DNA of 45,269 nucleotides, taken from the IMG/VR virus record IMGVR_UViG_3300045825_000495, positions 1-45,269 of that record, one strand, 5' to 3'. Under the pieces are notes generated by a model, which saw nothing but the letters and a program-made list of their open reading frames with translations, did no database searches and was not told the DNA's origin. Below are positions 1-42,742 of this stretch, in pieces. This DNA is from a virus. How positions within the stretch are numbered: the stretch's first letter is position 1; every line of letters begins with the position of its first letter. The position numbers and the translations under genes were made by a program.

Positions 1-452
1 GGTGTACTTGAACGAACAATCTCAAGTCCCATTACTTTCATTTTAGGAGATGATAATCTAACACCTTCAACGTCAAGAACACGTGCAACATATTTTTTCT
101 TAGCAACAAAAAATCCACTATCAGCAACAATCTCACGATCCATTGCTTGAGCTTCAGGTTCGAAACAGTTCAAATATTCACTCAATTCTGTAAGGGTATC
201 GTTGATTACAGGTTGCAATTTTTCTTCACAGAAATCACTACAGAATGTTACAATATCATCCTTTGTAACATTAGGATTTTCTTTCTTGTGAATATTCACA
301 ATTGGAGATAAAGTGTGGTAACTATTATGAACTAGAATATGATTAGCAACAAAATTATGTGCTTCCTCAACTTCAATGTCATATACCCATTCTTCTTGTA
401 CTCCTATATCTTCTAAAATAAAATTGTTAGTAATTAACATCTCATATTTCAT
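1..452 (-). CDS. 43: DNA polymerase (gp43) C-terminal part preceded by the C-half of a split intein; partial
   Basis: This reading frame begins at ATG 452 (AAGGA about 10 bases upstream) and runs off the window edge after 150 codons. Residues 1-43 are a C-terminal intein half: block F (VYDIEVEEAHNF) followed by ANHILVHN, with the penultimate His and terminal Asn needed for Asn cyclization. The next residue, Ser44, would be the +1 nucleophile. From Ser44 (SYHTLSPIVN) onward the sequence reads as the part of a family B polymerase that follows motif C, entering the thumb. Joined in trans to the 761-2983 product it would restore GDTDS-SYHTL, matching T4 gp43 DTDSIYV. The start overlaps the end of the endonuclease remnant, so translation is probably coupled. 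The 3' end of the gene is outside the window. Confidence 0.9.
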   Translation of the reverse strand, partial: MKYEMLITNNFILEDIGVQEEWVYDIEVEEAHNFVANHILVHNSYHTLSPIVNIHKKENPNVTKDDIVTFCSDFCEEKLQPVINDTLTELSEYLNCFEPEAQAMDREIVADSGFFVAKKKYVARVLDVEGVRLSSPKMKVMGLEIVRSST

Positions 453-777
453 TCATATCCTTATATTTTTCTTTAATTGTGTTTATAATATTGATGAAAA
501 TATCTTCATTTTTTTCATCAGATTCCCATATATTATAACACATATATCCTTGATTTTTTATTAAATCGGTTTTTATTTTATCTTGTAACCATATAGATTC
601 GGAAGTCAATAACTTATTATATGGGTTAGGTGTATCATCTTTCTTATATAAATTTGGATTCGCATGAAAACAATTGCCATTAAATTCAATACATATTTTA
701 ATATCTGTAAGAACAAAATCATATCTATAATATTTTATGGTGATACCGATACAATTATTTCTAATATTGTACGTGTA
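442..777 (-). pseudogene. Vsr-like (EDxHD) homing endonuclease remnant between the two polymerase halves
   Basis: An open frame between in-frame stops encodes about 111 residues with hallmarks of the Vsr-fold homing endonucleases: YDFVL (catalytic Asp), IEFNG, CFHANP (catalytic His), an IWLQDKIK-like segment with Asp, and GYMCYNIWESDEK. There is no ATG, GTG or TTG before the conserved core, and the N-terminal part that normally carries the first Glu of EDxHD is missing. The frame overlaps the 3' end of the polymerase N gene and ends across the start codon of the polymerase C gene. It is most likely a decayed homing endonuclease that once spread the intein. Rescue by frameshifting from the upstream frame or a non-standard start cannot be excluded. 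Confidence 0.75.
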
Positions 778-2983
778 CTACCTTATCACCATTTTTAATA
801 TCTTTTGGTTTTATCTCTGCAAATATACCATCACGTACTACTATCATTGAATGGTCTTCTGTCATTACAACTGAATTGCCATTAACAGTTAATCTATACA
901 TTTTTTTCTTAACTTTGTGTTTCATTATATAATTCACATTATGATAATGCATACCCTTTTCTTGGATAACACCCAAGGTTTTATCATTTGCATCTTTTAC
1001 ATGTTTTACAAAATGATTTTCTTTTGTATTTTCAACCAATCCATTCATTTTATCATAATAATCAGAAATTGTTATATCACCAAATTTTTCAGTATTAATT
1101 ATAGTATCTCCAAGAACTGAACTATCCGTATCCCCTGCAAGAATTGAATCATACCCATAATTATTCATGGTATATCTTGATATTTCCCATGCAGTAACTT
1201 GATTACTTACACGTCCATTTGCCGTAATAGCAGCAGCGATTTCTTCATTAAACAAAACGAAATGTTTATTAGCCATTGCTCCATATAATGCGTTCATACG
1301 AATTTTAGCTGCTAGTTGTTTCGTGTTAAAGAATGCAATCATCTTCTCAGTTTGTTTGATATCTGATGAATCAATATCGATATCTGCTTTTTGATCTTGC
1401 AATAACATCTCATACTTGAACATTTCATTCTTCGCTACTTTACGACCTGCATATATTTCTTTAATCAGACGGGGAACAATACCTAATTTATCATTACGAA
1501 AAAATGCACCATTTATACCTGCTGAAACATTATGTTTCTTGAGAATTTTACCAACTTTTGCGAGGACATCTTTTTGATCCATCCACCTCATGAAATAACC
1601 TTCACGGGTTGACCATGGTGTTGGATTTTTAGAATCGTAATCATTTGATGTAAAATTTCCATCAAGAAATAATATTTTATCACGAATTTTCTTAAGGTCA
1701 TCATGCATCTTATCTTCTGTTACGTATGTCTCGGGTGACATATTACACCATCTCATAATTGATGGATATAGTGATGCAAAGTCAAACGAAACAATCCAGT
1801 TATGTTTTCCTTTTTTAGGATCTGCAACCCAACCACCAACAACCCCATTATACTCAGGATTACCTGAATCATTTGGAAGAATAAGATTATCGGCATATGA
1901 TTGGTTACTAATGTATATTCCCCAAGGTTTAACCGTTCCTAATGCATCATCTACGTTGATACCTGAACTGTATGCAATCATCCGTGTTAGTTCAACAAGA
2001 TTTAGTTTCTCATCCAGTTGATGTAACAGTACAGCATCTTTGATTCCATAATATACGAACTTCTCCCAATCACCGTGCATGAATGCTGAGATATTTTTGA
2101 ATTCGCCATAATCAACTTTTCCTTCACCTTCACCTAATTCCACCTTAATGATGTTTTCAAGTGAGTATGATGTTTGAGTTGTATATGTGAATTTCTTATA
2201 AAGGTCCATCATATCAAGAAGATAGATACCATCCCATGATGTTTGATATTCTTTTTGATTTGACCCAGGAACCGTTTTTTCTTTTACTGATGCACGACCT
2301 ACTGGACTTAAATTACCTTCGCCATATCCCATTTTCTTTGCACGATTTGTAAGATACGGAAAGTCGAATCCATGTCCGTTCCATGCAGTGATAATAGCAG
2401 GTTTAAGGTTATCCATCAATTTGAAGAACGCATAAAACAATTCTTTCTCGCTTGAAAATGATTTGAATATAAGATTAGGAAATTTCTGTCTTAACTCGTT
2501 GTGATATGATTCTGTGATACCTTCATCTGCAAGAATAATAATTTTTTTATTGAATGTATCATATATCTGAATCATGTTAACGGCTGAAGGTGTCACATCT
2601 GCATGAGGAAATCCTTGGTCAGGAAGAACTCGTGTTTCAATATCAAGGTACCATATTCGTGAGGTAAATTCAGTTTGTTGTGTGTAATAATTTTGTCTGA
2701 TATGCCCATAAACTGATGATATCTGACCGTATGTTGAACCACCGATTTGATCTTGGAATTTTATAAATTCTTTATATTCTTTATCATCATCGAAAACATG
2801 TTTCTCAAGGAATATATTCTCATCAAGTAAATATCTGAAATTGGTTGGTTTATTGCCTTTTGATTTTGTATAAATCTCAGGATTATAATTTGCTTTTCTT
2901 ATTACAGATTCTTTTTTATCCTCATCGAAAAAGCGCTCGTATAATGTGTACCCACTTTGGAAAACGTTTTCATAATTATTCAT
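761..2983 (-). CDS. 43: DNA polymerase (gp43) N-terminal part fused to the N-half of a split intein
   Basis: This 740-residue protein holds the 3'-5' exonuclease and most of the polymerase of a T4-type family B enzyme. Exo I is DIE (114-116), Exo II is in NGHGFDF (about 202-208), and Exo III is YYGIKD (about 311-316). Motif A is DFASLYPS (401-408), motif B is K560...NALYG, and motif C is GDTDS (617-621). Directly after motif C, residues 622-740 are an N-intein: block A begins SVLGDT, and block B contains TEDHS (the TxxH motif). The chain stops at GDKVVHVQY, inside the intein, so activity should require trans-splicing with the product of 1-452. The residue before GDTDS is Ala where many family members have Tyr. 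The start has AAGGAG six bases upstream. Confidence 0.92.
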   Translation of the reverse strand: MNNYENVFQSGYTLYERFFDEDKKESVIRKANYNPEIYTKSKGNKPTNFRYLLDENIFLEKHVFDDDKEYKEFIKFQDQIGGSTYGQISSVYGHIRQNYYTQQTEFTSRIWYLDIETRVLPDQGFPHADVTPSAVNMIQIYDTFNKKIIILADEGITESYHNELRQKFPNLIFKSFSSEKELFYAFFKLMDNLKPAIITAWNGHGFDFPYLTNRAKKMGYGEGNLSPVGRASVKEKTVPGSNQKEYQTSWDGIYLLDMMDLYKKFTYTTQTSYSLENIIKVELGEGEGKVDYGEFKNISAFMHGDWEKFVYYGIKDAVLLHQLDEKLNLVELTRMIAYSSGINVDDALGTVKPWGIYISNQSYADNLILPNDSGNPEYNGVVGGWVADPKKGKHNWIVSFDFASLYPSIMRWCNMSPETYVTEDKMHDDLKKIRDKILFLDGNFTSNDYDSKNPTPWSTREGYFMRWMDQKDVLAKVGKILKKHNVSAGINGAFFRNDKLGIVPRLIKEIYAGRKVAKNEMFKYEMLLQDQKADIDIDSSDIKQTEKMIAFFNTKQLAAKIRMNALYGAMANKHFVLFNEEIAAAITANGRVSNQVTAWEISRYTMNNYGYDSILAGDTDSSVLGDTIINTEKFGDITISDYYDKMNGLVENTKENHFVKHVKDANDKTLGVIQEKGMHYHNVNYIMKHKVKKKMYRLTVNGNSVVMTEDHSMIVVRDGIFAEIKPKDIKNGDKVVHVQY

Positions 2984-19716: not shown

Positions 19717-20224
19717 GTATAGCCTGCCTTTTTTCCCATTCACCTTCATCCCTTGATCGCACTTCACGCTCCCAAGGAAATACTACCCATTCATGATTGT
19801 GTTCATAACAATATGCGTATTTCTTATCAGAACCCATTAATGCCATTGGATACACCTCGGAACTAGGATATTTTATCTTAAAGAAATCAATACATTTCTC
19901 AATGGTATTTCCTGTGTCTATTATGTCATCACATAGGAAAATAATATCGCCATCTTCAATCTCAGACCATATTAAAATTGGTTCTTTATCATTACCATCA
20001 TATGATTGAAATTTAATAATACTCATAGGTAACTCAGAAAGATTACTTAAATGAGCTGCCATTCCTAAACTTCCACGATGAATTCCGACAACAGAACCTT
20101 TTTTACCACTTTTGGTTTTTTCGTGAATTATAAAGTTGAAGTAACTAATACAGTTATCATAATTACTCCACTCCATATGTAGTTTTTCAACATTACTTGA
20201 TGAATTGACTTCTGATTCCGACAT
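19703..20224 (-). CDS. Phosphoribosyltransferase (purine type)
   Basis: A 173-residue type I phosphoribosyltransferase. The PRPP-binding loop is IIFLCDDIIDTGNTIEK (D99, D100, D103, G105), and the pyrophosphate loop region is GIHRGSLGMA (47-56), as in xanthine-guanine or hypoxanthine enzymes. Its start lies inside the end of folE (32-base overlap) with GGAGGAG upstream, so it is made together with FolE. Purine salvage is the plain reading. The pairing with 7-deazaguanine genes raises the possibility that it handles a modified base; that is inference. Confidence 0.85.
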   Translation of the reverse strand: MSESEVNSSSNVEKLHMEWSNYDNCISYFNFIIHEKTKSGKKGSVVGIHRGSLGMAAHLSNLSELPMSIIKFQSYDGNDKEPILIWSEIEDGDIIFLCDDIIDTGNTIEKCIDFFKIKYPSSEVYPMALMGSDKKYAYCYEHNHEWVVFPWEREVRSRDEGEWEKRQAIHGRK

Positions 20225-20903
20225 CTTCGAATACTCCTCCGAATACTAATGAGGTTGTTGTTGCCTCAACATCATCTGAACCTCGTGTACTTTCACATGT
20301 ATGGATTAGATTTTTCATATAAACCATAACGTCCTCAGAACCTAATGTTTCTACAAGGTCATTACGAACCATGGAACAAAGATTTTCTTGTAGTTGTGGT
20401 CTTCGTGCATAATAATCAACCAATCGGCTTATTTTACTAATTCCCATAAGCATATCTGTTGGTCGATATACAACCATACAATAACTGTCCTGTGAATTTC
20501 CTTCCGTGAAGAATGGTGCAAAGTGATGTGAGCATAGTGATTGAACTTTACATTTTTTAACAACGAACTGCCCACCTACAATGTCATTTGGAAATGCTTC
20601 CATTCGTGGGTGTGAAGAATATCGTCCTACCATCCATTCATTGACATACATGCTTGCAATACGCATTGGTGTATCTAAAACATTTGGGTCTTTACGATCA
20701 ATCTTTAGAATATCTAGTATATCCTCAAATTTTTTTGCAACTTCCTCAGTCATTACGGCACGCTGCATCTCAGTTAATTCACGATTACCATGAGGTGCAA
20801 ACGGTTCAATATCGTCTAGTTCTGCAATGATTTTTTCACGTAATTCTGTATCGTTACCTAATCGTTTAATTTTTTTCTTAATTTTATCTTGTGCGGTTTT
20901 CAA
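20193..20903 (-). CDS. folE: GTP cyclohydrolase I
   Basis: This 236-residue enzyme converts GTP to dihydroneopterin triphosphate, the first step towards 7-deazaguanine bases (and folate). The zinc site is C124, H127 and C203 (LCSHHFAPF and HTCESTRG), with PTDMLMGISKISRLVDYYA and RRPQLQENL as the conserved core. The start is TTG at 20903 with AAGGAAAT upstream. The promoter at 20939-20960 and a near-consensus Fur-like box at 20917-20935 sit just upstream. With queE and dpdA in the next 2 kb it points to phage DNA modification. Confidence 0.95.
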   Translation of the reverse strand: MKTAQDKIKKKIKRLGNDTELREKIIAELDDIEPFAPHGNRELTEMQRAVMTEEVAKKFEDILDILKIDRKDPNVLDTPMRIASMYVNEWMVGRYSSHPRMEAFPNDIVGGQFVVKKCKVQSLCSHHFAPFFTEGNSQDSYCMVVYRPTDMLMGISKISRLVDYYARRPQLQENLCSMVRNDLVETLGSEDVMVYMKNLIHTCESTRGSDDVEATTTSLVFGGVFEDVGIRSQFIK

Positions 20904-20916
20904 TAATTTCCTTTTT

Positions 20917-20935
20917 GATAATGATTATCGTTATC
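20917..20935 (-). promoter_or_regulatory. Fur-box-like palindrome in the folE leader
   Basis: Plus-strand GATAATGATTATCGTTATC matches the E. coli Fur consensus at 17 of 19 positions and lies between the -10 element and the ribosome binding site of folE. Confidence 0.6.
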
Positions 20936-20938
20936 ATT

Positions 20939-20960
20939 ATTATATCATAATAAACTTAAA
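20939..20960 (-). promoter_or_regulatory. Extended -10 promoter of folE
   Basis: TTTAAGTTTATTA then TGATATAAT on the minus strand, directly after the dpdA-like gene. Confidence 0.8.
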
Positions 20961-20973
20961 GACGGCTGAGAAA

Positions 20974-22431
20974 TTATTCCCAGTCGTTCCAGTCATGAAC
21001 ATTATCTTCTTTCTTGCGTTGAAGTTCATCAATCTCTGCTAATGTATTAACATAATTGATTTTACGAGGTCGAAGGTGTGCAAAAATCTTTCTATATTCT
21101 TTTTCATGTGCAACATAATCATCATAATTTTTAAGATTATCGATCATTGAGCTTGCAGTTTTTCTGTACTTGTTTGATGATTTTGATAGGTAGTTTCTGT
21201 TGTTCATAATATCATTTGTAATTCTAAGAAACGTTGCGCTTTCAAGTATAAAACAATTGTATGAATACATATTAGTTCGTCTGACATATTCTTCTTTATC
21301 CTCGAAATCCGCTGCTAAACGTTTTCCTTCCGAATTGAAAGGTGAAAATAATTCGATTAGATCTTCAACCGTTTTACATTCAGGAAAATGTTTTGTCATC
21401 ATAGGACCCACTTCTTCCCACATGTTAGTAAAGTGCATATGTGCTAAACGTGTCATCTTGTACCCACCTAGGTGAATCGCAGTAACCTTACCATCATCAC
21501 GCAATTCAGTCCATTTACCCCATGTTGAGGATGACGTGTGTGTACTTGCATCAAAACTGAATTTGAATGGAAAATCATAATAATCTTTATTTGCAAGAAT
21601 CATGAATGAGAATGTTCTTTCAATTGTACCAGTACCCAATAGATGCACTTGTTTTAAATGTTCCTTTGGCACATGAGTTAGATCACGTTGCAAACGTAAG
21701 TACACATTCATTAGGTCATCAAAACGCTGATATGCCGTTGCACCTAACGCAATACCATGAATACGGTCATAATACTTCTCAGGAATAATTTCATATAATC
21801 CACGTGCATACTCGTTATAATCTTCAATATGATGTCCTTGAAGAATCAACATAATCTTAGTGTGTGTACCTTGTTTGATAAATTCTTCAATCTGATCAAT
21901 AACATTTTTTGCTGATTCTTTACCACGAATATAAGCAAGTTCTTTTACAAAATAATTATTTGATTTTGCTTTATGAAATGTAATCGATTTACCAACTGCT
22001 TTATCGCCAACTGTAACCATAGGCATGAGGTCAAATGACATCGCTAAATCTGAGTATGTTCCTTGTGATTTAAAAATATTAGGTTTTTCTTCTTCGAGAT
22101 CTAAACCTCTTGTAAAAATCTGCAATCCACCTGAATCCGAATGTACTTCAAGGGTCATACCACGTTGTTTTAACAATTCCATCATATAACCGTTTTTCTG
22201 CTCATATTGTGCATTGTACATTACGGACATATCGATTCCGGCTTTATCAAACATACCTTTTAGGTAGTTAACTGAATCAACAATATAATCGACATATTCC
22301 ATCTTATTGTTGTTTGTTGCATGTTTGATCATTGATTCTGCACCTGAGAATCCTAAGAATCCACTTGCACAATATTCAATCTCCACAGGTTTTTTAGCTT
22401 TTTTTAGTTTTACGTTTTTATCAGTAATCAT
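20974..22431 (-). CDS. dpdA: DpdA-like DNA deazaguanine transglycosylase (TGT fold)
   Basis: A 485-residue TIM-barrel protein with tRNA-guanine transglycosylase signatures. HSDSGGLQIF (catalytic D99), HGIALGAT and HLLGTGTIER correspond to the TGT glycine-rich strands, and FSFDASTHTS carries the likely nucleophile D294. The TGT zinc-binding Cys cluster is absent, as expected for the DNA-acting DpdA group. It would swap guanine in phage DNA for a 7-deazaguanine base. ATG 22431 is preferred; an earlier start would run far into queE. GTGTGAGATA spans the coupling site after the queE stop. Confidence 0.85.
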   Translation of the reverse strand: MITDKNVKLKKAKKPVEIEYCASGFLGFSGAESMIKHATNNNKMEYVDYIVDSVNYLKGMFDKAGIDMSVMYNAQYEQKNGYMMELLKQRGMTLEVHSDSGGLQIFTRGLDLEEEKPNIFKSQGTYSDLAMSFDLMPMVTVGDKAVGKSITFHKAKSNNYFVKELAYIRGKESAKNVIDQIEEFIKQGTHTKIMLILQGHHIEDYNEYARGLYEIIPEKYYDRIHGIALGATAYQRFDDLMNVYLRLQRDLTHVPKEHLKQVHLLGTGTIERTFSFMILANKDYYDFPFKFSFDASTHTSSSTWGKWTELRDDGKVTAIHLGGYKMTRLAHMHFTNMWEEVGPMMTKHFPECKTVEDLIELFSPFNSEGKRLAADFEDKEEYVRRTNMYSYNCFILESATFLRITNDIMNNRNYLSKSSNKYRKTASSMIDNLKNYDDYVAHEKEYRKIFAHLRPRKINYVNTLAEIDELQRKKEDNVHDWNDWE

Positions 22432-22435
22432 TATC

Positions 22436-23194
22436 TCACACACCCATTTGATTACCCCAGATAGCAATATGCATTCTATCTGAGTACATGAAATTATGCT
22501 CAATACATAATTCTGCTACTGCAACACGATTCTCATTAAGAACCTCGTTTGTGTCACCTAATGGCATTAAATAAACGTCTGCATAGTACGCAAGCGAGTC
22601 AAGAATCTCACGAATCTCAGTCATGGTACCATCCGAGTTTTTCTTTGCAACAACAAATTTCAAATAACTTTGTTCTGTGTTCTCAAGAATATTTGTGATT
22701 GAGTCGATATTGATACGCTTATGTTTTGACTCACCTGAATTTTCAAGTTTAACACTCATACTGAATTGAATAAGTTTTTGATAATCTTTCGTGAATTCAA
22801 TATCAAGTGATGCGTTGGTTTCAATTGTTACCTTATGTCCACGTGAAATGTAATATACAAGAAGATTTTGAAACTCCGCTGTGTTCCAATAAATCAATGG
22901 TTCACCACCAGTGATAACGACATCATATTTTGATGCTTTTGCAGGAACAGATTTATCACATTCTTTTACAATGTCGATATAGTTGTCTTTAATATCCCAT
23001 TCTTTCTTGAATTTTTGATCTACTGAATAGAATGAATCACAACCGAATTTTTGTTCGCCATCCGGTGTTGTGTAAGGTACGCCAAATCCAGCGCATTTGA
23101 AGTTACATCCGCCAAACCGGATGAATAAAGAATTGTAACCAGCACGACGACCCTCGCCTTGAATACTGTAAAATGTTTCCATTAATGGTAGCAT
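22436..23194 (-). CDS. queE: 7-carboxy-7-deazaguanine synthase (QueE, radical SAM)
   Basis: A 252-residue radical SAM enzyme that contracts the ring of CPH4 to 7-carboxy-7-deazaguanine. The N-terminus METFYSIQGEG is diagnostic. The cluster Cys are C30 and C34 (GGCNFKCAGFG), with the third at C52 (KFGCDS), an insertion-bearing spacing (CX3C then 17 residues) unlike the compact CX3CX2C. TGGEPLIYW binds SAM. It runs directly into dpdA. Genes for QueD and QueC are not in the window and must lie elsewhere or in the host. Confidence 0.93.
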   Translation of the reverse strand: MLPLMETFYSIQGEGRRAGYNSLFIRFGGCNFKCAGFGVPYTTPDGEQKFGCDSFYSVDQKFKKEWDIKDNYIDIVKECDKSVPAKASKYDVVITGGEPLIYWNTAEFQNLLVYYISRGHKVTIETNASLDIEFTKDYQKLIQFSMSVKLENSGESKHKRINIDSITNILENTEQSYLKFVVAKKNSDGTMTEIREILDSLAYYADVYLMPLGDTNEVLNENRVAVAELCIEHNFMYSDRMHIAIWGNQMGV

Positions 23195-36345: not shown

Positions 36346-36765
36346 TTAATCTAAAAGTCTAAGTGACTTTGTTATTGGGTCTATATTACTTGAAAAATCA
36401 GGTCCTATACCTACGCATGTGTATGTTGGTTCATTGAATACAGTAAATCCCGAATCCTTAATAAGGACACATGACAAACCTGCTTCTTTTGCTTGAGCAT
36501 AAATCTTTAGAAGTTTTTCCTCAGATTTAACATAAACAACAATTTTACGGAAACTACCGTTTAACCACTCAGCCCATGCATCACCGGGAATTAAATCAAT
36601 GAACAATTTGACAGGGTATCCTGATACATCAAGGTCATCATGATTGAATCCACGCATCTTCTGCATGAGTGTACCTAGGCTAGCATGTGCCACTTGTGCG
36701 GCAAGTTTACCTGAAGGCATATTTAGATCTTTACGAACAACTATGACCTGTTTTACAATGTCCAC
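36346..36765 (-). CDS. Peptidyl-tRNA hydrolase, Pth2 type
   Basis: This 139-residue protein matches the archaeal/eukaryotic Pth2 fold rather than bacterial Pth. KQVIVVRKDLNMPSGKLAAQ then VAHASLGTL, KIVVYVKSEEKLLKIYAQ, and DSGFTVFNEPTYTCVGIGP are the conserved blocks. It cleaves peptidyl-tRNA to recycle tRNA from stalled translation. The start is GTG at 36765 with AAAGGAAAGAT; an overlapping ATG is out of frame. It may protect tRNA pools during infection, alongside RNA ligase and SmpB. Confidence 0.9.
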   Translation of the reverse strand: MDIVKQVIVVRKDLNMPSGKLAAQVAHASLGTLMQKMRGFNHDDLDVSGYPVKLFIDLIPGDAWAEWLNGSFRKIVVYVKSEEKLLKIYAQAKEAGLSCVLIKDSGFTVFNEPTYTCVGIGPDFSSNIDPITKSLRLLD

Positions 36766-39934: not shown

Positions 39935-40996
39935 TTAAAACTTAAATGTAAATGCGCCGGCAACAAGAAGAAGCAATATTGACCAACTTATCAACGCTGT
40001 GTAATAAACGGTTAATGATGTGCCAAAATATCTTTTACCAATCATAACACAGTCATGAGCAGGCGACAGTAGATATCCAACATAATCAAGCGCAAAGAAC
40101 CATAATAGATAAGGCAAACCAAAGACTGTTGTCATCATAACAGTTATAGCAGCAAACTTTCCGTCACTTCCCATACTGAACGAGCCTGCGAATGTGATTA
40201 TGCTTATAATCAACATACCTTTAAACGTACTTGGATCTAATCCTGTTGAAGTAATTGATTGTTCAATCCATTCTCTATGTTCTTGCATATATCCTGATGT
40301 TATCAATACAACAGATATGATTAATAATGTTTTCCAATTGATATATGAATTTAACACTTTATAATCATATGTTTCTGTAATAATAATATAATATGATACA
40401 AGCATACCAAATATTGAAAATACTAAAGTTGTACCTTCTCCCCCAAAATACATATAACTAAATATCGCAATAATGAAAGGAAGAACATACATTAAGAAAT
40501 CCCAAGGATTTATACTTGGATGAGCTTCTATATTCACCTCATGTTCATCGATCATAAACCATGCATATAATCCTATAAACAATGCACTTACCAGAAGTAA
40601 AGGCCATATCATTCCTATCCATGCGCTGTATCCTAAACCAAACGCAGCCATAGGCAATAATACAGGTTTTTCAATAGGTGACCACATATAAAAATGATGC
40701 GTAGTTAAGAAATCAATTATCCCTAACTTCTTTCGTGAGTCGTTATTATCATGCTCAGATCCGCAACAATTTGACTTTGATGTAGCAGTATCGAGAATAC
40801 TTGCACTTACAGTAGAGCGTCCTTCAATAGGAATAATACCGCTCACAAGACTGAGCATGATAATAACGACACGATTACTTTTGAATCGTGTCTTTAACCA
40901 TCCGTATGTAGAATTAAACAAATTGTGTTCTTTAACAATACCAGCGATAATCATTATTGTAAATAGAACAAAAACATATATTAAGTCATCAAACAT
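39935..40996 (-). CDS. DUF401-like polytopic membrane protein
   Basis: A 353-residue protein with about nine membrane segments. The C-terminal block GYLLSPAHDCVMIGKRYFGT resembles the SPxH-C...YF signature of the DUF401 transporter-like family (related to anion/dicarboxylate exchangers). A charged loop with Cys pair (SKSNCCGSEHDNNDSRKK) follows the second segment. It may move an ion or metabolite across the host membrane. Such a protein is unusual in a phage. AAGG lies upstream of the start region. Confidence 0.7.
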   Translation of the reverse strand: MFDDLIYVFVLFTIMIIAGIVKEHNLFNSTYGWLKTRFKSNRVVIIMLSLVSGIIPIEGRSTVSASILDTATSKSNCCGSEHDNNDSRKKLGIIDFLTTHHFYMWSPIEKPVLLPMAAFGLGYSAWIGMIWPLLLVSALFIGLYAWFMIDEHEVNIEAHPSINPWDFLMYVLPFIIAIFSYMYFGGEGTTLVFSIFGMLVSYYIIITETYDYKVLNSYINWKTLLIISVVLITSGYMQEHREWIEQSITSTGLDPSTFKGMLIISIITFAGSFSMGSDGKFAAITVMMTTVFGLPYLLWFFALDYVGYLLSPAHDCVMIGKRYFGTSLTVYYTALISWSILLLLVAGAFTFKF

Positions 40997-41277
40997 CAGT
41001 ACAAACCTCTCATTATTTTTTTGCCATCTTCACTCATCTCATCAAATCGTTTTATCGATTCTGCAACCCATGAGTCCCAATCTGCAAGGTATTTACGCCA
41101 CATAAAAGTTAAGCGAGGCATACCAACGAGTAACACAGGACTCATCTGTCTTGTGTACATATCGGTAATTTTGTCATTTACCTCATCGAATTTGTTATTG
41201 AATAACATTTCTCGAATATCAATATATAGAGGTAACAATGTCTCAACGCCCTGCACCCTTTGTTGTTCTTCGATCAT
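40996..41277 (-). CDS. Hypothetical protein, 93 aa
   Basis: A soluble helical protein with Met- and Arg-rich segments (MPRLTFMWRKYLADWDSW). Its ATG overlaps the stop of the membrane protein gene (AGATGATC). Directly precedes the DUF401-like gene. Confidence 0.7.
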   Translation of the reverse strand: MIEEQQRVQGVETLLPLYIDIREMLFNNKFDEVNDKITDMYTRQMSPVLLVGMPRLTFMWRKYLADWDSWVAESIKRFDEMSEDGKKIMRGLY

Positions 41278-41777
41278 CTTGATGCAATATCCGTGATTTT
41301 ATCATAAACCTTTCCAAATGCTGCAACGATATTTTTCGCTGTACGGACAAGAAAATCTGATGAAAAATAAACAATGATTGAAATAGGCCAGTAAAGAATC
41401 CACAATACAATATCATCAAGTTTGTCTTTAATTTCAGGTGCTTCCCATTCACGAATTTTATCACCATTTTTCTCAGCACGTGCAGATTTTTCCAACCAGT
41501 AGACCCGTTTCGCACGAACATATCTGTACCATTTAACAAATGACCATATTGTACCAGCAAGAAAATAACCAATGAATGAATAAAGAACACCCATGAACGT
41601 CAACTGGCGTACATCAATAAGACTGTCCCATTGCAATCCTGCGATTAACGCAATAAGTACAAGAACACCCGCATACGACTCAGAAGCGGCCAATCCTAGG
41701 AACAAAAACGCTCCTCCACAAATGAACAAAAGTTCATACCATACCATACCTGCAAACAATCCCATCAAGAATTCCAT
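41274..41777 (-). CDS. Membrane protein, 167 aa
   Basis: Several membrane segments (LMGLFAGMVWYELLFICGGA, GVLVLIALIAGLQW, FMGVLYSFIGYFLAGTIW, IVLWILYWPISIIVYF) with a charged cytoplasmic stretch between (RAKRVYWLEKSARAEKNGDK). Part of the membrane-protein run. Function unknown. Confidence 0.78.
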   Translation of the reverse strand: MEFLMGLFAGMVWYELLFICGGAFLFLGLAASESYAGVLVLIALIAGLQWDSLIDVRQLTFMGVLYSFIGYFLAGTIWSFVKWYRYVRAKRVYWLEKSARAEKNGDKIREWEAPEIKDKLDDIVLWILYWPISIIVYFSSDFLVRTAKNIVAAFGKVYDKITDIASR

Positions 41778-41778
41778 A

Positions 41779-42210
41779 TTATTCCTTTTCGTATTTTTTT
41801 ATGTCTTTTTCACGTTGATCTGCACGTTTATCGTACAACTTCTTGCCCTTACACAGACACAATTTTAACTTAACTCTTCCTTTGTCATTGATATAAATCT
41901 CTGACGGAATAAGAGTTAAGTTTTGATTAACCTTCATCTCATTGAATAAACGTGTAATCTGTTTTTTGTGTAACAACAATTTTCTTACACGTTTTTCCTC
42001 AAGGCGTTCATAAAACACTGCTTGTCCGTAAACAGGTATATGCATATCAAATAAGAAGATCTCGCCGTTTATTATTTTAGCGAAACTTCCCTTAATATTA
42101 CATAAATTTGATGCAATTTGTTTTACCTCGTATGACTTCAATTCGATTCCAACCTCAAGTTCAGAAAGAACTTCATACTCAAATGTGATTGAACGATTTT
42201 TCTGTATCAT
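41779..42210 (-). CDS. smpB: SmpB (SsrA-binding protein) with a shortened C-tail
   Basis: This 143-residue protein carries the SmpB core: LEVGIELKSYEVK (glycine-Glu tmRNA-binding face), FDMHIPVYGQ, RVRKLLLHKKQITRL, LTLIPSEIYINDKGRVKLKL and CKGKKLYDKR. In bacteria SmpB binds tmRNA and frees stalled ribosomes. After DKR only 14 residues remain (ADQREKDIKKYEKE), about seven fewer than E. coli, so residues matching the essential end of the E. coli tail are missing. It may therefore bind tmRNA without supporting full rescue. ATG 42210 has GAGGAAGGA. No tmRNA gene is seen nearby. Confidence 0.9.
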   Translation of the reverse strand: MIQKNRSITFEYEVLSELEVGIELKSYEVKQIASNLCNIKGSFAKIINGEIFLFDMHIPVYGQAVFYERLEEKRVRKLLLHKKQITRLFNEMKVNQNLTLIPSEIYINDKGRVKLKLCLCKGKKLYDKRADQREKDIKKYEKE

Positions 42211-42742
42211 ATTCCTTCCTCTTTAAGATTTTCTTTATTGCAACACCAAGTAGTATACTAAACATTCCTGCTTTCGAAAATACTCTTTTAGTAAATTTAA
42301 CAATTAGCATAATTCGTCTGTATGCATAACTTGATTTGATATAATTAACCAGCGCAACAAATTTCTCATAGAGATATTTAAACCACACAAATGTGAACAA
42401 TTTTTGTTTACCTCGCTCAAGTACCGCAAATGCAATGATAACGGGAATCATTGCAATTCCATACATAACTACACCTGCGATAACATGACCTTCAGCAAAG
42501 AAAGCAAATGAATATACTTCCACCAGTTTTGATAACCCATATATAGATACGAATGAAACCAAGATGAGATATCTGTTCATATTAAACTCGATGTAATCAA
42601 GTGCAATGACATAAAACTCATTTACATTTATTCGTTTATATACGGGGTTTGCCACCTTATCCCAAAGGATATGATCAAAGAAAATATATAATAATGCTAG
42701 GACGCCGATTAATACGTTTCTTAATTTTTTAATGATATACAT
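42179..42742 (-). CDS. Membrane protein, 187 aa
   Basis: At least four hydrophobic segments (NVLIGVLALLYIFF, YLILVSFVSIYGL, HVIAGVVMYGIAMIPVIIA, FSILLGVAIKKIL) with basic loops. The end overlaps the smpB start by 32 bases. Function unknown. Confidence 0.75.
   Translation of the reverse strand: MYIIKKLRNVLIGVLALLYIFFDHILWDKVANPVYKRINVNEFYVIALDYIEFNMNRYLILVSFVSIYGLSKLVEVYSFAFFAEGHVIAGVVMYGIAMIPVIIAFAVLERGKQKLFTFVWFKYLYEKFVALVNYIKSSYAYRRIMLIVKFTKRVFSKAGMFSILLGVAIKKILKRKEYDTEKSFNHI

Follow-up and report, generated by a model that had tools for sequence, protein, structure and literature searches.

The open reading frame (ORF) at positions 41779–42210 on the minus strand of a 45,269-nucleotide virus sequence (IMG/VR record IMGVR_UViG_3300045825_000495; the whole stretch analysed is hereafter called the window) encodes a real and complete SmpB with a short C-terminal tail. 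In the best reading, the phage carries an ordinary SmpB that takes part in trans-translation, using either the tmRNA of the host or a phage tmRNA from the unseen part of the genome; the most economical account of the short end is likewise a protein that still works with a tail of minimal length. We infer activity from sequence, and put at roughly 0.7 the probability that a lytic T4-like phage here carries a functional SmpB.

By means of SmpB, alanyl-tmRNA enters ribosomes without pairing to a codon; the decoding centre is contacted by the DKR-containing root of the SmpB tail and by residue 136, an aromatic residue or His, while binding of the tail helix requires an empty mRNA channel (PMC4151336, PMC8012679). 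The phage protein would bind the tRNA-like part of tmRNA, either the host's or one encoded in the unseen part of the phage genome, and would guide this tmRNA, through the KGKK/DKR root and the short helix of its tail, into ribosomes that have stalled on broken mRNAs. Rescue capacity could in this way keep pace during infection, presumably to the benefit of the phage.

Identification of the gene and its surroundings

The gene runs from an ATG start to a TAA stop and encodes 143 aa. Its product matched PF01668 (E = 5.1e-41) and, over the whole length, both TIGR00086 (136.2 bits, curated cut-off 119.1) and NF003843 (133.4 bits, curated cut-off 130); it also matched phrog_6791 (E = 1.5e-34), which is listed as a PHROG of unknown function. 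An AlphaFold model computed from an input of 35 related sequences had a mean pLDDT of 89, and all 21 PDB matches to this model with E < 0.001 were structures of SmpB or of SmpB with tmRNA, with or without the ribosome. Model and PDB comparison together place the protein in the SmpB beta-barrel fold. The core residues are kept: Glu19, Leu79, KGKK at residues 121–124, Tyr126 and DKR at residues 127–129 (41824–41832, minus strand), the last of these being invariant or nearly so in SmpB by column counts. Tyr126 provides the aromatic residue in the column of E. coli His136. The initial annotation had described a clear SmpB in phage DNA with an intact core, and both parts of this description are confirmed.

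The gene sits in a tight cluster, since the upstream ORF (187 aa; 42179–42742, minus strand) overlaps it by 32 bases and the ATG of the next gene (167 aa; 41274–41777, minus strand) lies one base after its stop codon. Both neighbours encode hydrophobic-looking proteins, for which no family was found. A Shine-Dalgarno-like GAGGAAGG, read from the sequence, is located just upstream of the smpB start (42214–42221, minus strand), and AAAAGGAA within the last smpB codons (41782–41789, minus strand) probably serves as the ribosome-binding site for the gene that follows; this site may have partly shaped these codons. The same arrangement bears on the reality of the short end. A run of seven A's (41794–41800, minus strand) lies inside the tail, a few codons ahead of the stop, and in a metagenome-type virus contig it could mark an assembly or sequencing indel, in which case the true protein end would differ. 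However, the following gene has its probable ribosome-binding site and ATG directly afterwards, as fits a gene end at this point, and we consider such an error very improbable.

No match to defence families was obtained among the five proteins around smpB. The idea that smpB is a prophage-edge fragment, as at tmRNA integration sites, was rejected, the gene lying inside a cluster with no adjoining tmRNA; the end of the window is 3 kb away. A DUF401 membrane protein of 353 aa (39935–40996, minus strand; E = 1.6e-8; phrog_14035, of unknown function) adjoins the smpB cluster. A second translation-linked gene at 36346–36765 (minus strand) encodes a PTH2-type peptidyl-tRNA hydrolase (PF01981, E = 3.9e-32). 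Of 29 SmpB virus records, the window's own included, 7 encode a PTH2; in the L017 record the distance to smpB is less than 8 kb, and in the control set the family was matched by the four archaea only. PTH2 would fit the same ribosome-rescue theme as SmpB.

The tail and its natural equals

Alignment on the DKR motif gives the window SmpB a tail of 14 residues, ADQREKDIKKYEKE (41782–41823, minus strand), exactly seven fewer than the 21 of E. coli K-12 SmpB (L110), and AlphaFold predicts a helix over residues 128–142. The protein ends at the position of E. coli Arg153, with Glu there, and the positions of Ile154 and Met155 are not reached. Thus, the earlier observations that the tail stops about seven residues early and that Ile occupies the column of the E. 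coli tail Trp (Ile137, 41800–41802, at Trp147) are accurate. With the SmpB family as described by PF01668, TIGR00086, and NF003843, the protein shares the whole-length match, the fold, the KGKK and DKR motifs, and the aromatic residue at the His136 position, but its tail has neither the Arg at the 153 position nor a hydrophobic residue beyond it.

The replacement of Trp had also been taken as a sign of a defect, which does not hold because Trp is unconserved at this position. Viral SmpBs most often have Ile there (42 of 84 rows), and Leu, Val, Ile, or Met occur in 28 of 41 Cloacimonadota rows, indicating that Trp is an E. coli-type choice. The 144-residue SmpB of Thermus thermophilus has Val137 at the Trp147 position (PMC3929946).

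Tail lengths were compared with identical sequences counted once and with one locus cut by a contig end (L074) left out. They ranged from 14 to 23 residues in 38 distinct Cloacimonadota SmpBs, from 12 to 23 (median 17) in 48 distinct phage-type SmpBs, and from 20 to 24 (median 22) in 16 distinct prophage/host-type SmpBs, the last group (20 loci) having been hand-picked from context. Tails of 16 residues or fewer were found in 12 of the 48 phage-type proteins, and the SmpB closest to that of the window (L013, 50%) has 17 tail residues. By alignment, the window tail is a short variant within the SmpB family, towards the bottom of the range seen in nature. Compared with most phage SmpBs, its end is pared down, since the Arg153-type and hydrophobic features are missing: Arg or Lys stands at the 153 position in 41/48 phage-type rows (Arg in 36/38 Cloacimonadota rows), and a hydrophobic residue is found at +15 to +17 in 42/48 phage-type but only 19/38 Cloacimonadota rows. 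A phage SmpB that lacks the hydrophobic end (L082) comes from a 597-kb record with its own tmRNA. The phage-type SmpBs are thus recurrent, shorter in the tail than the prophage/host-type proteins, and sometimes accompanied by a phage tmRNA. They form a natural series in which to ask how much tail trans-translation needs, and also whether phages use or block ribosome rescue.

Experiments on E. coli SmpB provide the case for a defective tail. Deleting the last five residues has no effect on tagging, and additional loss of Met155 and Ile154 severely reduces it, according to earlier work cited in PMC8363625; Arg153 and Ile154 meet the loop of tmRNA helix 5 in structures (PMC8363625). The claim that tail residues are needed therefore stands in the E. 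coli frame, where the loss of seven residues is harmful. Exactly 14 tail residues occur in 2 of the 38 distinct Cloacimonadota SmpBs (L114 and L136). Both end at a proper stop codon and have neither Arg at the 153 position nor a hydrophobic end; each is the only SmpB match in its genome (G030 and G057), and the tmRNAs of these genomes score 191.7 and 182.6 bits and encode the ordinary tag ANNNYALAA. The presence of such sole-copy proteins beside strong tmRNAs argues that reaching Ile154/Met155 does not decide SmpB membership. A tail of that reach is a trait of E. coli, not a fixed trait of the SmpB family. Equally short tails in host-clade SmpBs had been named as evidence against a defect; they exist in one bacterial clade, Cloacimonadota, which may or may not include the host. 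The two proteins have in common with the window SmpB exactly 14 residues after DKR and no Arg at the 153 position, whereas they are chromosomal and belong to another branch, the window row falling outside the Cloacimonadota clade.

Two further natural SmpBs are informative. The window protein (143 aa) and T. thermophilus SmpB (144 aa; PDB 1j1h, 4v8q) showed no offset in a phmmer alignment up to residue 139, so that the former is one residue shorter; the additional residue takes the Thermus protein to the position of E. coli Ile154. The Thermus system with that SmpB works in vitro (PMC3929946). Carsonella SmpB (Hudson et al. 2014, PMC4131195) is also a natural SmpB with a reduced tail, but in this reduced symbiont genome both tail and central loop were lost, whereas the window protein keeps its core and most of its tail.

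These comparisons weigh on the suggestion, made in the initial annotation, of a tail-defective inhibitor or of an SmpB specialised for the phage. As a decoy, the protein would keep its tmRNA-binding body, with the tail cut off just before the residues that contact tmRNA helix 5 and uS5; it would bind tmRNA without being able to place it, titrate it, and block host trans-translation as a dominant negative. If this were true, tmRNA would be loaded without ribosome takeover, and host ribosome rescue or its stress signalling would be off during infection. The stop at the Arg153 position matches the seven-residue loss that is so damaging in E. coli, SmpB tail mutants still bind tmRNA (PMC4151336), and the end features common to most phage SmpBs are missing. 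Moreover, inhibition of tmRNA has been reported for a molecule resembling the phage DS6A tmRNA fragment (PMC4131195), a possible precedent for phage inhibition of trans-translation. However, the equally short sole-copy SmpBs of the two Cloacimonadota genomes, the Thermus protein with just one residue more, the retained motifs for ribosome entry, and the tmRNA gene that often accompanies phage SmpB all speak against inhibition, and positive evidence for either suggestion was not found. We regard a decoy as unlikely and favour a working SmpB.

tmRNA in SmpB-bearing viruses

No tmRNA or tRNA was found in the 45 kb of the window, itself a fragment of the phage genome. Whole records were searched for 28 of 80 viral loci, with a few more added (e.g., Lak). 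Weak sub-cut-off matches to RF00023 occurred even in archaea of the control set, and for this reason only matches over the cut-off were counted. RF00023 tmRNA was detected in 8 of the 28 SmpB virus records and alpha_tmRNA in a ninth, just downstream of smpB; the other 19, many of them fragments, had none over the cut-off. Both Lak phage records tested carry tmRNA. In a 369-kb phage record (L035:10001-10849), a two-piece alpha-type tmRNA lies no more than 0.15 kb downstream of smpB. Frequent pairing of phage SmpBs with tmRNA suits activity of the window protein. Within the prophage/host-type group, tmRNA was next door in 12 cases and absent beside L042 and L081, in a scan that left out L031–L033, L044, L090, and L091.

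A special case of the preferred reading, overlapping with it in confidence, is a trans-translation module owned by the phage, in which a matched tmRNA would be encoded elsewhere in the phage and the short tail fitted to it. Such a module would agree with the nine tmRNA-bearing records, with the two-piece tmRNA beside smpB in L035, a member of the window's five-row starred set (see below), and with the incompleteness of the window, which would leave room for a tmRNA gene outside it. The empty 45 kb and the 19 records without tmRNA count against it, the latter less so where they are fragments, and we treat the module as a tentative proposal of rather doubtful standing. An ordinary phage-carried SmpB, working with whichever tmRNA is available, remains the reading that we prefer.

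Some observations concern phage tmRNAs themselves. In L035, the tmRNA gene after smpB sits in a large tRNA array. A phage tmRNA whose tag has 25 residues, ANVELSTWT(F/I)EDA..., was seen in 15 IMG/VR phage contigs (L159–L173), which were found by a pattern for the first residues of the tag, making that part conserved by construction. Two such tmRNAs (L102 and L099) were first found without the pattern, and SmpB is also encoded in 5 of the 15 records. The commonest bacterial tmRNA tag has 10 aa (PMC11915505).

The phage and SmpB carriage among its relatives

A PHROG scan of 20 window proteins returned the names family B DNA polymerase, type II topoisomerase subunits, DnaB-like helicase, RNA ligase/tail fibre attachment catalyst, rIIA, and rIIB. 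This gene set points to a T4-like, probably lytic phage. The frame of the DNA polymerase continues beyond the window at its low end, showing the record to be incomplete. Among 50,697 phage records, the nearest relatives of the topoisomerase large subunit belong to 634–642-kb metagenomic phages (45–46%), and one of these huge phages, LR745206, encodes SmpB as well. Two very close kin (L145 and L146; helicase 92%) are collinear with the window over 5–28 kb and do not extend as far as smpB. A more distant kin phage (G089) has ten window homologues (polymerase 46%, helicase 49%) and a different-looking SmpB that adjoins its helicase gene, and another (G007; helicase 43%, polymerase 33%) encodes SmpB together with a tmRNA of 90.6 bits. 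A scan with rIIA found no kin. SmpB carriage, seen also in G089 and G007, thus recurs in this region of phage space, which does not imply a single vertical descent.

SmpB was initially held to be rare in phages. This is correct in number, as tblastn matched 46 of 50,697 INPHARED records, some of them probably host DNA, but the gene is recurrent: an alignment-based scan of viral contigs returned 167 relatives, of which 80 were kept. The 46 records include Lak and other huge phages, along with Staphylococcus prophages and Listeria and Enterococcus contigs that may carry host smpB. When the window SmpB alone served as the query, no relatives were obtained from the viral contigs. A genome scan returned Cloacimonadota only, which are preselected by the shared peptide EIYINDKG, and hence we make no claim of Cloacimonadota as the host.

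In a first tree of 104 rows, 41 viral rows formed one group (99/92) and 37 Cloacimonadota rows a separate one (100/99). A second tree of 85 rows was thinned by 20 near-duplicates and left out L079, which has a long branch; L074 was kept out of both, and bacterial phyla beyond Cloacimonadota were barely sampled. Here, the smallest starred set around the window comprised L013, L035, L041, L066, and the window, all viral (97/85). Pairing of the window with L013 was weakly supported in both trees (98/37 and 92/22). A topology joining the window to Cloacimonadota was not rejected (p-AU 0.10), and a clade of the window, L013, L147, L034, and L068 was neither found nor rejected (p-AU 0.5).

The occurrence of tmRNA and SmpB in huge phages was already reported by Al-Shayeb et al. 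2020 (PMC7162821). The window is like those systems in that SmpB is found in large phages and its own topoisomerase is nearest to that of an SmpB-encoding 634-kb phage; it differs in that tmRNA was reported there and none was seen here. In the literature consulted, phage-encoded SmpB is mentioned only in passing (PMC7162821), in a passage that says nothing of tails. No paper on phage SmpB tails was found in the literature searched, in which subscription journals were thinly covered.

Other features of the window were noted. The family B DNA polymerase gene (255–2983, minus strand) is broken in the middle: its first ORF ends in an intein-like N part (PF14890, a weak match at E = 1.4e-5), a small frame at 445–729 looks by eye like a small endonuclease, and an intein-like C end at 324–413 stands ahead of the remaining polymerase. 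This arrangement resembles a fractured gene with a split intein. The DnaB-like helicase of a kin phage (L147:10001-11862) is also split, into two ORFs with intein-like ends. Lastly, a possible 7-deazaguanine/queuosine-type cluster at 20193–23194 (minus strand) contains a FolE-like ORF (20193–20903) and a 509-aa Tgt-like ORF without a Pfam match, both named by eye, and a radical SAM protein at 22436–23194.
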